A stretch of DNA of 60,928 nt. Source: Geothrix sp. Lineage in GTDB: Bacteria; Acidobacteriota; Holophagae; Holophagales; Holophagaceae. Position 1 is the stretch's first letter, and each line of letters starts with the position of its first letter. This document shows, piece by piece, positions 1,110-7,153 of the stretch. The stretch is taken from positions 1-60,928 of the forward strand of contig JAUXSE010000032.1 of NCBI GenBank assembly GCA_030681515.1. The letters are read 5' to 3'. The notes under the pieces are model-generated. The model made no database searches. It had not been told where the DNA came from and worked only from the letters and a program-made list of their open reading frames with translations. The position numbers and the translations under genes were made by a program.

Positions 1110-1379
1110 AGATCTCATATCAAAACCCCACGCCGCCGCGCGAGGGGTGCCGGGCGAGCGAGGCGAGGAACGCGAGTCGAAGCGTAGCAGGTACTACGCG
1201 CGACGAGCGTGACGTGGCATCGCGACGCCCGCCACCCCTCGCCCGGAGGGATGAAGCCAGGCGGGCGCCCCGCGGCGTCAGGCCCCTTGAACAACGAACC
1301 ACGTTGCCCTGCGGGCCCTTCCTGGCGGTGCATCCCGCCTGGCTTCATCGCGGCAGCGTCGGGTTTTGATATGAGATCT
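1110..1379. repeat. 270-bp element with perfect 19-bp terminal inverted repeats
   Basis: Bases 1110-1128 (AGATCTCATATCAAAACCC) and 1361-1379 are perfect inverted copies. Nested inside are a 16-bp perfect inverted pair (1250-1265 with 1334-1349, GATGAAGCCAGGCGGG), a 17-bp pair with two mismatches (1140-1156 with 1226-1242) and a small hairpin GCGTAG...CTACGC near 1182-1200. No credible protein is encoded. The design is MITE-like or that of a repetitive palindromic element. No target-site duplication could be recognised. It fills the space between the divergent rlmH and lipoprotein genes, so it probably carries or has replaced both promoters. Confidence 0.75.
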
Positions 1380-3323: not shown

Positions 3324-4058
3324 ATGCCTCGAACCCACCCCCTGCCCCCGCTTGCCGAAGCCCTCCGCGATCCCAGGGAGCCTGCGGCCCGCGCCCTGCT
3401 GGGCCACCTGTTGGTGCGCGAGGACATCACGCTCCGCATCACGGAAGTCGAGGCCTACGGCGGACCAGAGGACAGCGCCAGCCACGCGCGTCATGGCCGT
3501 ACGGCCCGCAATGCGCCCATGTGGGGCCCACCAGGCCGCGCCTACCTCTACTTCTGCTACGGCATGCACTGGATGCTGAACGTGGTGACGGGGCCCGAGG
3601 GCGAGGCCTCCGCCGTGCTCATCCGCGGGGCGGAGGTGATGGCGGGCCTGGAGACGGTGCTGGCGCGGCGGAGGGGCGTCACGGCCACGCCCCGGCTTTG
3701 CGCAGGCCCTGGCAAGGTGGCCCAGGCCCTGGGCCTCGACAAGGCCTTCGATGGCCACGATCTGCTGGCCCCGGGCGGCCTGGAACTGCGCCCCGGCCCA
3801 CCCCCCGCCCAAATGCTCGAAGGCCGCCGCCTGGGGATCGCCTTCGCCACCGCCGAAGACCAGGCCCGGCCCTGGCGCTTCGCGGACGGAGACAGCCATG
3901 CGGTCCTCCAGCAAAGGGATCTCGCTCCCACTCGGATCCCTGAGCGATCCGAGTGGGAGCGGCCCCTTGTGGCACCCTGGCAACCCATCCATACTCAACC
4001 TCCGCTCCATCCGAACCCTTGCGGGGGTGAAGTGAAGCGACACCACACACGGGGGTGA
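3324..4058 (+). CDS. DNA-3-methyladenine glycosylase (AAG/MPG family), probable read-through C-terminus
   Basis: This is an AAG/MPG-type base-excision repair enzyme that removes 3-methyladenine and other alkylated or deaminated purines. Family signatures are RITEVEAYGGPEDSASHA (catalytic Glu region near residue 38), GRTARNAPMWGPPGRAYLYFCYGMHWMLNVV near 55-90, EASAVLIRGAE and LCAGPGKVAQALGL. The start at 3324 follows a GAAGG site. The core ends near PWRFADGDSHAVLQQ, where the family normally stops. Here the frame continues for about 45 more residues through a 15-bp palindrome (3924-3960) and the putative ssrA promoter, ending 8 bp inside the tmRNA gene. The natural stop seems to have been lost, probably when the palindrome inserted. 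Confidence 0.88.
   Translation: MPRTHPLPPLAEALRDPREPAARALLGHLLVREDITLRITEVEAYGGPEDSASHARHGRTARNAPMWGPPGRAYLYFCYGMHWMLNVVTGPEGEASAVLIRGAEVMAGLETVLARRRGVTATPRLCAGPGKVAQALGLDKAFDGHDLLAPGGLELRPGPPPAQMLEGRRLGIAFATAEDQARPWRFADGDSHAVLQQRDLAPTRIPERSEWERPLVAPWQPIHTQPPLHPNPCGGEVKRHHTRG
3924..3960. repeat. 15-bp perfect palindrome inside the 3' end of the glycosylase frame
   Basis: GCTCCCACTCGGATC at 3924-3938 pairs perfectly with 3946-3960 across a 7-base loop. It shares the CTCGGATC/GATCCGAG core with the palindrome at 2308-2332. It could attenuate transcription between the glycosylase gene and ssrA, but there is no T-tract. Confidence 0.65.
3967..3995 (+). promoter_or_regulatory. possible sigma70 promoter of ssrA
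   Basis: TTGTGG at 3967-3972 and CATACT at 3990-3995 are separated by 17 bp. Both are imperfect matches to the consensus. Initiation near 4002 would give a leader of about 50 bases, to be removed by RNase P before the mature tmRNA end at 4051. Weak evidence. Confidence 0.35.
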
Positions 4059-4442
4059 CCGGTTTCGACAGGTCGTGATCCGGGTGTCCGGTGCAGGCGG
4101 GGGTTGGACGGCTGGCCCCCTCATCAAGCCGCCCACACCAAACTGCCAACGATAACTTCGAACTGGCTCTCGCTGCCTAGGGCAACCTAGGCTCCGAGCG
4201 AGTCCTCGGGATCTCTGGGTACCGAGCTCGTTAAACCTCCGGAAGGGTGGCTTCGGCCTGCCGGACGGAGGTACCAGATAGGCTGCCGCGACGCCTTCTG
4301 ACGGTGGCCGAAATCCAGGAGGCAAGCGTTCCGAGCGGCTCGTCCGTTCCCCGCCGGAAGGCTTCAAGAACGGACCAAGCCTGTGGAAGAACCGCCAACC
4401 GGCATGTCTTGGACGTGGGTTCGACTCCCACCACCTCCACCA
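4051..4442 (+). ncRNA. ssrA: transfer-messenger RNA (tmRNA, SsrA)
   Basis: This is a one-piece tmRNA of 392 nt. The 5' end GGGGGTGACCGGTTTCGAC and the 3' end GGGTTCGACTCCCACCACCTCCACCA are diagnostic: a seven-pair acceptor stem (GGGGGUG with CACCUCC, including one G-U pair), a T-arm with TTCGACT, and an encoded CCA. The tag frame is 4145-4180, resume codon GCC, giving ANDNFELALAA followed by TAG; the LALAA end is the degradation signal read by ClpXP-type proteases. With SmpB it rescues ribosomes stalled on broken mRNAs. A Rho-independent terminator follows immediately. Confidence 0.97.
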
Positions 4443-4475
4443 AACAAAGGCCCCCGCTCGCGGGGGCCTTTGTTT
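4442..4475 (+). terminator. Rho-independent terminator of ssrA
   Basis: A 15-bp perfect stem (AAACAAAGGCCCCCG / CGGGGGCCTTTGTTT) with a CTCG loop starts at the last base of the tmRNA CCA end. The descending arm is T-rich. Confidence 0.85.
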
Positions 4476-5098
4476 GGTGGAATTGCCGCTGCGGGCAGGT
4501 AGGCGCCCATGGAAGCAGGACTTGATGTCCTGCTTCCATGGATCAGCGCCGTGCCCAGCAGCGACACGCCACGGCCCCCATTCGGGGGCCCTTTTTGTGG
4601 TGGTATTGAAAGGCGGGAGTCGAAATCGCAGAAATGCTGGCAGGTAGCCGTAGCCTTTGGCAGTCCGGGGGACTGCCAAAGGCGTTAAGCGGCGTGCCAG
4701 CATTTCGCGCGGCCGGAGCGTCACCCGCAGGGTGATGCGGAGGGACTCCCACTACCGGGGCTGTTACCGAGCCGCTCGAGTGGGCCTTTGGTGGAATTGC
4801 CGCTGCGGGCAGGTAGGCGCCCATGGAAGCAGGACTTGATGTCCTGCTTCCATGGATCAGCGCCGTGCCCAGCAGCGACACGCCACGGCCCCCATTCGGG
4901 GGCCCCTTTTGTGGTGGAGATAGAAAGGCAGGGAGTCGAAATCGCAGAAATGCTGGCAGGTAGCCGTAGCCTTTGGCAGTCCGGGGGACTGCCAAAGGCG
5001 TTAAGCGGCGTGCCAGCATTTCGCGCGGCCGGAGCGTCACCCCGCAGGGGTGATGCGGAGGGACTCCCACCACCGGAGGGCTACCGAACCGCATCCGC
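4473..5098. repeat. tandem duplication of a ~314-bp structured unit behind ssrA
   Basis: Two nearly identical units lie at about 4473-4786 and 4787-5098 (offset 314 bp). Each holds, in order: (a) a long hairpin module with outer stem CGCTGcGGGCA/TGCCCaGCAGCG, then GGCGC/GCGCC, topped by a 14-bp hairpin CATGGAAGCAGGAC-TTGAT-GTCCTGCTTCCATG; (b) a plus-strand terminator-like hairpin GGCCCCCATTCGGGGGCC plus T-run at 4573-4596 (copy 4887-4908); (c) a second module with outer stem TGCTGGCA/TGCCAGCA, then GCCG/CGGC, topped by CCTTTGGCAGTCC-GGG-GGACTGCCAAAGG; (d) a small hairpin GTCACCCGCAGGGTGATGC; and (e) a flanking GGGAGTC/GACTCCC pair. No protein is credible here. Confidence 0.8.
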
Positions 5099-5112
5099 GA
5101 GGCTTCTTGCGT

Positions 5113-5230
5113 GGCGGAGGTGGCGGGAGTCGAAATCGCAGAACTGCTGGCAGGCAGGGCCCCAGAAGGCGTCACTTGATGTGGCGCCTTCAGGATCAGG
5201 CCCGTGCCAGCATTTCGCGCGGTCGGATTC
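5113..5230. repeat. diverged third copy of the structured module
   Basis: It begins GGCGGGAGTCGAAATCGCAGAA like part (c) of the tandem unit. It keeps the outer stem TGCTGGCA/TGCCAGCA, but the second stem is now GGGCC/GGCCC and the terminal hairpin is AGAAGGCG...CGCCTTC with the TTGAT loop of part (a). It ends at TTTCGCGCGGTCGG, one base before the toxin stop codon region at 5232. It is the left border of the toxin-antitoxin island. Confidence 0.65.
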
Positions 5231-5231
5231 C

Positions 5232-5576
5232 TTACGCCCCGATGATGCTGGCAATCGTGTCGGCTACCAGTTGCACCGTTCCTTTATCGAGTGTTTCCGA
5301 ATACTCCGCCCCTCTCGCCTGAAGATCCAAACTGCGGATCTGATGGCAGACCACCACCCCACCTGTCTTGGTCCCCGTTAGCGGCACCGTAACCCCAGAT
5401 TCACGTGGGCCCGCGCCCCCAGTCGTTATGGCGACGGTTACCGAAATTCCATACTGGTTCAGCGACTTGGGAGACAACACCAGATAGGCGTGATGGCCCT
5501 TCATTTCCTTACCGGCGACTTCATCTGGGGTAAACCAGTAGACGTCGCCCCGGTCAGGAACCCGGAAACCGATCAT
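5232..5576 (-). CDS. PemK/MazF-family mRNA interferase toxin
   Basis: The product has 114 residues, the usual size for a MazF-type endoribonuclease toxin that cuts mRNA at short motifs. The family core is visible: RGDVYWFTP with EMKGHHAYLVLSPKSLNQYG (GDV.W...P..G.E..G.R..lVlSp...N), then VTVPLTGTKTGGVVVCHQIRSLD, where MazF has the conserved substrate-binding loop and QI(R)xlD. It is the last gene of a three-gene operon; its ATG overlaps the upstream stop codon (ATGA). Base composition looks less GC-rich than neighbouring genes, as expected for transfer. A diverged structured repeat begins right after its stop. Confidence 0.88.
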   Translation of the reverse strand: MIGFRVPDRGDVYWFTPDEVAGKEMKGHHAYLVLSPKSLNQYGISVTVAITTGGAGPRESGVTVPLTGTKTGGVVVCHQIRSLDLQARGAEYSETLDKGTVQLVADTIASIIGA

Positions 5577-5860
5577 GCAAGCTCGCGTCCGACAGGTCCG
5601 CCTTCTTGATTGAAAACGATCGCACGGTGTAGCTCATTCATGTTTTCTTCGGTGGCACCTTGGAGTAATTCCTCCAAGGTGAATCGTCTTTTCTTCTTGG
5701 TGGAGATGGAAACGTATGCGGTAGAGGTATCGACGGAAAAATATTCGAGGACACCTCGGGCGCCCCCAATCCGCTCAATCAGGAAAGCGGCCTCTGTCCC
5801 AAACCCGCTTGTGGGCTGGTAGGGGGGGCGGGGCTCGACAGTTGAAACCAGTGTGTTCAT
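5573..5860 (-). CDS. MazE-tail antitoxin candidate with atypical N-terminus
   Basis: This 95-residue protein is encoded between the TIGR04255 gene and the toxin, with ATGA overlaps at both ends and a GGGAG site before its start. Residues about 58-95 (RRFTLEELLQGATEEN...GGPVGRELA) match the toxin-neutralising C-terminal tail of MazE-type antitoxins (YTLEELL.G.T.EN....G.PVGRE). The first 55 residues (for example GFGTEAAFLIERIGGARG, YFSVDTSTAYVS) do not show the AbrB-type DNA-binding fold or the KWGNS-type motif expected in MazE. The neutralising role is inferred from position and the tail. DNA binding, if any, must come from a different fold or another protein. Confidence 0.75.
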   Translation of the reverse strand: MNTLVSTVEPRPPYQPTSGFGTEAAFLIERIGGARGVLEYFSVDTSTAYVSISTKKKRRFTLEELLQGATEENMNELHRAIVFNQEGGPVGRELA

Positions 5861-6585
5861 CGGATCAACTCCCGTGCTGATTCGTGAAGGCTCATTTCAA
5901 AAATGTGATTCTTCCGAATTCTGAACTGTTCAAACAGTGCCCAGATCTGCTCGTCTTCCTGAGGGACATTTCGGTCTCTGAACAAGTCGATGTCCAGAAT
6001 GAGAGACGCCGTGTCCGGCTGAATCGGAACAGCAGGCGTTTGTGTGACAACGGCCACAGACTCAAGGTCGATCTGCGGAAGGTTCAACTGCATGAGGAAG
6101 CCAGCGAGGCCCGTGTCGAGTTCTGGTGGAATGCTGGGAATCAGTCTGAAGAAGTCAGCGAAATTCAGCCTGGATGTATTCGGAACATCAAAACGGTTGA
6201 TGTAGCGAACTGCAAGCCTTGTCGGGGTGGCGCCTGTCCTGGAACGAAACAGGGACCACAACCTCTTCGCCTCTTCCGTCAAGGCTTCCCAACTCTGATA
6301 GGGGTGAAGGTGGCTCACCGAAAAGCCGTTCCCTCTTGCCTGCCATACCTTGGTCCTATCGGCATTCCAGAACTGAAACCCATGCAGTGATCGCCTGCCC
6401 TCGGTAACTGGCACAGCAGAATCAGGTGGAAAATTGAACTGAAGCTCATTCTTACTGATCTCCCGAACTTCGGAAAATTCAGGAGTGTCCTGGCCCAAAG
6501 CCCGCAGCGCCTCCATATCGCAAGCGAGATCCAGAGTCTGTATGTCTAGAACAGCCTCGGAGATTGGTGCGTGGGCATAGGACAT
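5857..6585 (-). CDS. TIGR04255 family protein
   Basis: The 242-residue product resembles the sporadically distributed TIGR04255 family: an opening APISEAVLDIQ (family PI.EA..D), a central GFQFWNADRTKVWQARGNGFSVSHL, TRLAVRYINRFDVP near residue 145, and a C-terminal region rich in charged and aromatic residues. The biochemical role of the family is not established. It is the promoter-proximal gene of the operon and is translationally coupled to the MazE-tail gene by a 4-bp overlap. The coupling suggests it acts with the toxin-antitoxin pair, for example as a regulator, sensor or third component. That is inference. Its composition looks lower in GC than the housekeeping genes around it. Confidence 0.8.
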   Translation of the reverse strand: MSYAHAPISEAVLDIQTLDLACDMEALRALGQDTPEFSEVREISKNELQFNFPPDSAVPVTEGRRSLHGFQFWNADRTKVWQARGNGFSVSHLHPYQSWEALTEEAKRLWSLFRSRTGATPTRLAVRYINRFDVPNTSRLNFADFFRLIPSIPPELDTGLAGFLMQLNLPQIDLESVAVVTQTPAVPIQPDTASLILDIDLFRDRNVPQEDEQIWALFEQFRIRKNHIFEMSLHESARELIR

Positions 6586-7153
6586 GTCCCAGATGGTATC
6601 AGGCGGCTCAACCCAAGCCCTGATTGGTCACTCCAGGGCCTTGCCTAGGTCCGGGGTGCCTTATGGCCCCGTGGAGGACGCGCCACGCTGTTCCATCCGC
6701 ATCCGCTGCTTGTCGGGTGATCCAGGGGCCGGGGTGTCCTGCAATCAAACCGATCCTGGGCCCTCTCCCCCCGGACCATAGCCAGAACAGTCCGGGGGAC
6801 TGCCAAAGGCGTTAAGCGGCGTGCCAGCATTTCGCGCGGCCGGAGCGTCACCCCGCAGGGGTGATGCGGAGGACTCTCGCCACCCTCCAAATCCCGGCGA
6901 TGACCCCTTTACACTCTGTCAACCAATTGATGGACCCGTCCCGAAATCACCCCCCATTTAGTGCTTCCCATCACCTCTTGAGTCCTGGCCCTCGCCCCTC
7001 GCCCCTCCTGCGGCTAGAGTCATGTCGTCCTGTTTCCGGCCTTTGAACCACGCCGACGCAGCCCCGGGACGGGCCCCGCGGCACCCCTTTCCAGACCATC
7101 CTGACCCGGGCCCGCGCCCACTCTTTCTCAACACCTTCCTTCCTGGAGGAACC
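6586..7153. other. gene-free stretch between the island and gdhA
   Basis: No credible gene is present. The stretch holds the half-copy of the structured repeat at 6789-6889 and the leader of gdhA. A strong GGAGGA ribosome-binding site at 7145-7150 precedes gdhA. I could not identify a convincing promoter for either the island operon or gdhA. Confidence 0.6.
6789..6889. repeat. half copy of the structured repeat (right border of the island)
   Basis: The segment CAGTCCGGGGGACTGCC... through GGCGTTAAGCGGCGTGCCAGCATTTC to the GTCACCCCGCAGGGGTGATGCGG hairpin is nearly identical to 4664-4743 and 4978-5060. It starts in the terminal hairpin of module (c), so the whole left arm is missing. The TIGR04255-toxin operon lies between this half copy and the diverged copy at 5113-5230. 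Confidence 0.8.

Follow-up and report, generated by a model that had tools for sequence, protein, structure and literature searches.

A TIGR04255, MazE-tail and MazF operon of Geothrix as one member of a wide, modular and apparently undescribed family of predicted three-gene toxin systems

What is a protein of the "sporadically distributed" family TIGR04255 doing at the head of an operon that ends in a MazF toxin gene? The question is raised by a short minus-strand operon on contig JAUXSE010000032.1 of Geothrix sp. (assembly GCA_030681515.1), of which we analysed the whole stretch of 60,928 nucleotides (nt), hereafter the window. An earlier note, made from the letters alone, had described three genes overlapping by ATGA at both junctions and encoding a TIGR04255 protein, a protein with a MazE-like tail but no AbrB-type N-terminus, and a PemK/MazF toxin; it proposed a three-part toxin system in which TIGR04255 might supply a missing DNA-binding or sensing function, possibly in phage defence. 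The gene coordinates and the reading of both junctions bear out this arrangement, and family searches confirm all three assignments. The main value of the operon lies in its being one member of a wide three-gene family: the TIGR04255 toxin family is modular and apparently undescribed, its novelty being provisional, and TIGR04255 is probably a control component that the members of a little-studied kind of toxin system have in common. If this is true, a "sporadic" family without known function gains a role, and some unnamed third genes beside TIGR04255 become predicted toxins.

The three-gene architecture and its effectors

TIGR04255 (E up to 0.001) occurs in 38 of 396 genomes of the window's own phylum; the counts for the phyla of genomes G400, G396, G403 and G399 are 30/398, 22/247, 12/151 and 10/149, and none of 14 control genomes carries it. 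It was also found at 12 viral-contig loci (two near-copies), at 19 named genome loci, archaeal ones included, and in 2 of 72,556 plasmid records. From 164 loci gathered, six were left out (L033, a duplicate of the window; L034; the plasmid MazF loci L081 and L082; and L045 and L134, which could not be placed), and removal of 7 duplicates from the remaining 158 gave 151 distinct loci from at least five phyla, window included; the hand-placed coordinates of L100 and L104 drew an out-of-frame flag, yet both loci were kept in the counts. Two further TIGR04255 places (G653:C55 and G520:C115) lie outside the locus set.

Five of the 151 loci end too early and one (L156) lacks gene 2, leaving 145 in which a second gene accompanies TIGR04255. 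This gene overlaps or abuts the TIGR04255 gene (−62 to +6 nt) in 136 loci and stands 7–120 nt away in 9. Under the same rule, control open reading frames (ORFs) of at least 220 amino acids (aa), taken mechanically from either strand of 101 of the 151 loci and some perhaps not genes, had an overlapping or abutting neighbour in 57 of 169 cases, one at 7–120 nt in 70 and none in 42. A gap of −4 separates TIGR04255 from gene 2 in 52/145 loci, compared with 15/169 control ORFs. When proteins were compared all against all with phmmer, 114 of the 145 gene-2 and 124 of the 144 gene-3 proteins fell into clusters of two or more, none of which mixes positions, and the clusters of the two genes pair up: HEPN proteins are preceded by 18 gene-2 proteins from a single cluster, 6 HicB-like gene-2 proteins stand before 6 HicA-like ones, and 6 others before 6 DUF7689 proteins. 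At L029, judging by eye, the PIN-like gene comes straight after a seemingly shortened TIGR04255 gene, gene 2 being absent, which makes the locus a possible two-gene derivative; this locus was classed as PIN though its PIN-like gene occupies the second position.

The three-part system stands as a unit in which TIGR04255 is the recurrent third component (about 145 loci), but the MazF-centred form of the idea was too narrow: MazF occupies gene 3 in 4 of 144 loci, window included, and one of these (L021, E 0.006) is weak and falls below the cut-off. Adjacency of TIGR04255 to MazE/MazF pairs, the rarity of which the earlier note had named as telling against its model, is in fact rare; yet TIGR04255 heads many operons with other effectors. 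Among the 144 gene-3 proteins Pfam (E up to 0.001) recognises DUF7689 in 6, HEPN in 4, PemK in 3, PIN in 3 and HicA in 2, with zeta, AAA_33, HNH, PIN_3 and Abhydrolase_1 as singletons; with cluster mates counted, HEPN rises to 19 and HicA-like to 6. The HEPN cluster is backed by Pfam matches (E up to 0.01) in 7 of its 17 members and by PDB HEPN chains at 7.9e-9. Three of the largest gene-3 clusters (22, 19 and 17 members) received no Pfam name, profiles of two unnamed effector classes had no match among PDB sequences, and ten proteins taken from the gene-2 and gene-3 positions of loci other than the window had no NCBIfam family (E up to 0.001).

Two effector groups deserve separate mention. 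DUF7689 (PF24738, best E 9.4e-42) is a candidate toxin because it is the third gene in six TIGR04255 operons (L118:593-1033, minus strand, and five relatives). A motif resembling QGD...TQxCD(L/I/A), recognised by eye, is common to four gene-3 clusters of 17, 8, 7 and 2 members (examples L010:2913-3731, plus strand; L148:560-1120, minus; L015:2518-3120, plus; L117:2614-3282, plus), which may together be a single effector superfamily without a name; one of the clusters was searched as a profile against the PDB and had no match.

Exchange of the gene-2 tail together with the effector

Mapped onto a tree of TIGR04255 (140 of the 151 rows, 122 with a class label; a quick method with SH-aLRT support only), the 15 gene-3 classes require 30 changes, against a minimum of 14 and a shuffled mean of 86.6, with 0 of 200 shuffles as low. 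TIGR04255 lineages thus retain an effector for long, yet have repeatedly swapped it. MazF, with 4 rows, requires 3 changes, all forced by starred branches, and 22 of 500 shuffles are as low.

The two halves of gene 2 were compared at 129 loci, the pairs behind the correlations not being independent: the C-terminal half tracks gene 3 (partial r 0.76), with a partial r of 0.15 for TIGR04255. Two comparisons that share one locus illustrate the exchange. In L088 and L119, TIGR04255 is 30% identical and the N-terminal halves of gene 2 are unlike, while MazF is 61% identical and the gene-2 tails are alike; in L117 and L119, TIGR04255 is 85% identical and the N-terminal parts of gene 2 are alike, while the tails differ and gene 3 is unrelated (20%). 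DNA similarity between L117 and L119 starts just before TIGR04255 and stops inside gene 2. The L119 tail had no match in plasmids. Comparison of loci shows TIGR04255 to stay in place while the gene-2 tail and the effector are exchanged as a cassette.

The Geothrix operon and its setting

The features of the window operon, none of whose three frames is interrupted, are collected in Table 1. Protein 1 fits the NCBIfam model TIGR04255 along its whole length (residues 3-241 on profile positions 2-251 of 252; E 2.6e-29; 102.8 bits where the cut-off is 30). MazF proteins are RNases, and MazE tails are their blockers. Protein 3 belongs to PF02452 PemK_toxin (E 5.8e-19, 68.7 bits against a curated cut-off of 23.1) and matches 9 distinct Kid/MazF-type sequences in the PDB (E up to 0.001), the best being Kid 1m1f at 8.8e-12; its NCBIfam MazF matches all fall below the model cut-offs (best NF052489, 116.8 bits against 150). 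Two plasmid MazF relatives are 46% and 39% identical to it, each paired with an antitoxin of about 90 aa in a two-gene operon; these are the 2 of 87 plasmid records with a MazF relative whose surroundings were inspected, both plain two-gene pairs. Where Kid has its conserved Arg (R29 of E. coli MazF, in which an Arg and a Thr are catalytic), the alignment places a His in the window protein; the ITTGG/VTSGG stretch aligns. His also occupies this position in the two plasmid relatives, both annotated as toxins.

Table 1. Features of the operon in the window
Feature	Position	Strand	Basis
TIGR04255 protein, 242 aa, gene 1; proposed constant partner or sensor	5857..6585	-	NCBIfam match and AlphaFold2 model
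95-aa middle protein; MazE-like antitoxin lacking an AbrB match	5573..5860	-	NF052488 tail match, Pfam
N-terminal part of middle protein, residues 1-52; putative TIGR04255-facing segment	5705..5860	-	swap seen in L117/L119, by analogy
MazE-type neutralising tail, residues 53-94 of middle protein (predicted)	5579..5704	-	NF052488 profile; aligns to the MazE of two bicistronic pairs
PemK/MazF-family endoribonuclease toxin, 114 aa (family assignment)	5232..5576	-	PF02452; PDB Kid 1m1f

The middle protein matches the MazE model NF052488 ("TAtMazEAgrob") with its C-terminal part only, on profile positions 48-87 of 87 (E 3.4e-7; 30 bits, far below the whole-protein cut-off of 130). In a three-sequence alignment its tail aligns with two ordinary MazE antitoxins, those of the plasmid pairs, and its N-terminal part finds no convincing alignment. 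Pfam (E up to 0.1) did not find an AbrB family in it, the sole family given being YajR_YAM at 0.094. By its family resemblance, the protein is predicted to carry a MazF-neutralising C-terminal tail of the MazE type. The operon is not a canonical bicistronic MazEF, a third gene being coupled to it by ATGA. A weak match to the middle protein at L034 (E 0.003), with no toxin-like neighbour seen, was judged to be chance, and a single-sequence structure model of the middle protein had low confidence (pLDDT 52) and was set aside. Inside the middle gene lies a terminator-like hairpin with a T-rich tail in the sense direction (5745-5769, minus strand), which is possibly due to chance, as the region holds 5 such sites where 2.4 (sd 1.9) would be expected.

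The operon, the only place in its genome with a TIGR04255 gene, is situated between a transfer-messenger RNA (tmRNA) gene (4051-4442) and the glutamate dehydrogenase gene (gdh). Its GC content is 0.54 and that at third codon positions (GC3) 0.57-0.64 across its genes, compared with 0.65 for the window and a GC3 of 0.94 for gdh, 0.93 for a PPDK-like gene and 0.81 for a glycosylase gene. Of 31 genomes of the genus, 28 contain gdh (the window and 27 others), and 26 of these 27 loci carry 1.5 kb of upstream sequence, the remaining one (L192) having none. In all 26, TIGR04255 is absent upstream of gdh (tblastn matches the window's own locus only), and similarity to the window begins at 6905 to 7134; a 179-nt piece of the window (1201-1379) recurs in two of the gdh loci. 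The tmRNA was not found around gdh in the 26 loci, though their 1.5 kb upstream is too short to reach it even in the window. In the phylum sample (E up to 0.001), at least two genus members besides the window have TIGR04255 among the matches listed, one of them under the cut-off. We take the operon to be an acquired, sporadic islet.

Repeats flank it at 4473-5227 and 6742-6853: a 131-nt unit occurs twice (99%), a 112-nt unit has two identical copies, with a third at 64% on the far side of the operon, and four copies of a 25-nt motif are present. The 3' end of the tmRNA (4420-4447), which may be a former insertion site, has an inverted 28-nt copy, 86% complementary, at 5107-5134, where the MazF gene ends some 100 nt away.

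As for phage defence, which the earlier note had raised as a possibility, the circumstantial signs are mixed. In a PHROGs scan of ten proteins from 7 viral loci, two triads lie among phage structural genes, one (L057) between the terminase large-subunit and portal genes and the other (L055) about 1.2 kb after a portal gene; the triad of L058 stands beside a phage-type DNA methyltransferase and that of L060 beside an integrase, and the scan found nothing structural at L050, L056 and L059. No MazF relatives were found in viral contigs. Of 90 TIGR04255 places in 80 of the 112 genomes, 5 have an N6_Mtase gene (PF02384) no more than 10 kb away (the window's place is not among them), where about 0.75 are expected (rough Poisson P 0.001, taking a rough genome size of 4.2 Mb and a copy number of 140, with contig ends ignored and the contigs to compare picked by eye), a modest excess. 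Nuclease-type effectors and a few PADLOC-DB 2.0.0 matches of third genes point the same way: 31 PADLOC families match among the 144 (E up to 1e-4), and among the 25 of these 31 that were listed, PDC-M32B is matched by 3 members and the others (PtuB/HNH, PtuA, PDC-M01B and PDC-M05B) by one each. Against this, the same database gives no family for the three window proteins (E up to 1) or for 30 TIGR04255 members (E up to 0.01), and curated phage records gave no support (see below). The context suits a role in defence or between mobile elements, which is not proof of one. Close behind the HEPN-type operons L006, L071, L074, L075 and L077 there are, by eye, large restriction-enzyme-like ORFs, as if in a defence cluster.

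TIGR04255 as constant partner, its rivals and known systems

Taken across loci, the material makes it rather probable that an undescribed superfamily of tripartite toxin systems, spread over several phyla, is built around TIGR04255 as its constant hub. Gene 2 would be a two-part adaptor, in which a partner segment is joined to a neutraliser specific for the effector, gene 3 an exchangeable effector, and the whole a counterpart, unrelated to SecB, of the toxin-antitoxin-chaperone (TAC) modules. Gene-3 families of unknown activity would then be unrecognised toxins, and since phages and prophages carry the module, it would serve in conflicts between mobile elements. For the window itself the model we favour, to which we give about an even chance, is a horizontally acquired tripartite toxin-antitoxin (TA) module in which TIGR04255, the constant partner beside swappable toxins, acts on the N-terminal part of the antitoxin. 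MazF would be the toxin, its family assignment carrying the prediction of its activity, and the C-terminal tail of the 95-aa protein would occupy it as MazE tails do. TIGR04255 would keep the N-terminal part folded, stable or in complex, such that the toxin is silent only while TIGR04255 is available; titration of TIGR04255, for instance by a phage protein, would lead to loss of the antitoxin and to cleavage of RNA by MazF.

Related studies offer precedents. Chaperones and their chaperone-addiction segments (ChADs) are described as pairs movable between TA systems, the ChAD acting also at the N-terminus of reporter proteins, and one kind of partner serves antitoxins of the HicB, MqsA and HigA types (PMC5105189); in CmdTAC a phage capsid protein draws off the chaperone CmdC, which leads to degradation of the antitoxin and release of the toxin (PMC11618068); and in Panacea, neutralising elements that can be exchanged accompany a constant part that may be sensory (PMC10440598). 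As to novelty, the terms "TIGR04255" and "sporadically distributed protein" did not occur in the main texts of a library of open-licence papers, subscription papers and preprints lying outside that search; the titles and abstract openings found by searches on tripartite TA systems hold nothing on a TIGR04255 protein; and "TIGR" and "three-gene" were not found in the main text of a HicA survey (PMC10865869).

Several results weigh against a constant partner that acts on the antitoxin N-terminus. The N-terminal half of gene 2 has partial r values of 0.33 with gene 3 and 0.13 with TIGR04255, neither of them strong, and it lies at background in the 6 remaining pairs that combine close TIGR04255 with a differing gene 3, so that the link between this part and TIGR04255 rests on the single case of L117 and L119. 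Where TIGR04255 is distant and gene 3 alike, the C-terminal half is kept in 5 of 6 pairs, 4 of which share L018, and is not kept in L030/L148. No convincing relative of the middle protein was found in the 396 genomes of the phylum, and none in plasmids or viral contigs, leaving conservation of its N-terminal part without homologue support. A common hydrophobic, ChAD-like segment was not found in most gene-2 classes and is visible in a few alone, for which reason we do not claim one: the mean z is −0.35 for 142 gene-2 N-terminal parts (first 80 residues) and −0.51 for 136 gene-3 controls, with z over 2 in 5% and 1.5%, respectively. Pfam (E up to 0.1) gave no SecB family for 30 TIGR04255 members, and none of 50,697 curated phage records (E up to 0.01) holds a relative of the window TIGR04255 protein.

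The fold of TIGR04255 bears on a different reading, namely that the protein supplies the DNA binding and autoregulation lost by a truncated MazE, its two-repeat, saddle-like fold binding the operator. The AlphaFold2 model (built with 29 relatives; pLDDT 92.2, pTM 0.86) consists of two alpha/beta repeats with the element order E-H-E-E-E-E-H then E-E-E-E-H-H. Foldseek found no clear solved relative in the PDB (best E 1.0e-3, an AdoMetDC prozyme), and the TIGR04255 profile had no good match among PDB sequences (best E 0.074). VIA-align, which itself warns that Z under 8 may reflect merely a common arrangement and whose scores here are middling, gives Z up to 9.2 for catalytic domains of guanidino kinases and 6.5 to 7.2 for the TATA-binding protein (TBP; about 150-165 residues at about 5 Å). 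A guanidino-kinase function was dropped because no arginine stands among the invariant or nearly invariant residues of the TIGR04255 alignment. The TBP fold is a duplicated beta-alpha-beta4-alpha saddle; the order of elements in the model roughly fits it, with the helix after the first strand missing in the second half. These matches, and the lack of an AbrB match in the middle protein, are what the DNA-binding reading can call upon; against it, the TBP scores fall below 8 and those of guanidino kinases are higher, and in one 18-locus class gene 2 has an HTH-like (helix-turn-helix) stretch of its own, named by eye, while TIGR04255 is retained. Such retention speaks against DNA binding as the role that TIGR04255 keeps throughout; the earlier suggestion that it replaces a missing DNA-binding function was not borne out, and we regard this reading as distinctly unlikely. 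The Pfam scan of the 30 members returned 4 families, one member each, and 9 of the 30 match phrog_5464, whose function is unnamed. In a viral structure library, the best Foldseek match to the window TIGR04255 protein is A0A515MGR4 (202 residues, E 2.0e-6, TM 0.51 by query).

That one constant protein stands beside many effectors, in operons some of which lie among phage structural genes (L057 and L055), would also be expected if TIGR04255 sensed a phage or stress signal directly and opened the complex by allostery, in the manner put forward for the Panacea domain (PMC10440598), with antitoxin stability independent of it. No trigger is known for such a sensor, and sequence data cannot separate it from a chaperone-type partner; we hold it to be unlikely. 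That the operon is an ordinary MazEF with a divergent MazE and TIGR04255 an unrelated passenger would agree with the origin of MazF and of the MazE tail in known families, with the scarcity of MazF beside TIGR04255 and with the lack of strong MazF clustering on the tree. The ATGA coupling, the same architecture in about 145 loci and three separate MazF associations stand against it, and make it very improbable. Decay of the islet, with an inactive MazF, draws on the His at the conserved Arg position and on the sporadic occurrence of the operon in the genus; this His looks like a branch trait, however, because the two plasmid relatives share it, and with the frames intact decay is hardly probable at all.

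HipBST is likewise a three-gene TA system; going by titles and abstract openings, its kinase toxin and the partner correspond to the two parts of HipA, and no link to the proteins of the window operon was seen. With MazEF, Kis-Kid and PemIK the operon has in common a toxin of the MazF family and a neutralising tail of the MazE type, from which it differs in not being bicistronic, in an N-terminus without AbrB match and in its extra coupled gene. TAC modules (M. tuberculosis HigBA1-SecB(TA) and CmdTAC) also have three genes and one kind of partner for unrelated antitoxins; in them an antitoxin segment confers the dependence, and partner-segment pairs are movable between systems. TIGR04255, in contrast, has no detectable SecB homology, its candidate partner segment is N-terminal where the ChAD is C-terminal, no common hydrophobic addiction sequence was found, and the gene order differs, TIGR04255 being the first gene here. 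No SecB chain appears among the 50 matches listed by each of Foldseek and VIA-align, a listing that does not exclude a SecB fold; by the sequence tests made, TIGR04255 systems are not SecB-type TAC modules. The Panacea family is not among the Pfam matches of TIGR04255, no further Panacea test having been made. The Panacea (PanA) network (PMC10440598) resembles TIGR04255 systems in joining a constant part to many unrelated toxins and has swappable linear neutralising elements; Panacea, however, is an antitoxin domain of two-gene systems, whereas TIGR04255 is a separate gene of a three-gene system. If our reading is true, a different protein has given rise anew to the logic of a constant partner and swappable toxins that TAC and Panacea follow, and what such hubs sense becomes directly testable with one small operon placed in a laboratory strain of E. 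coli.

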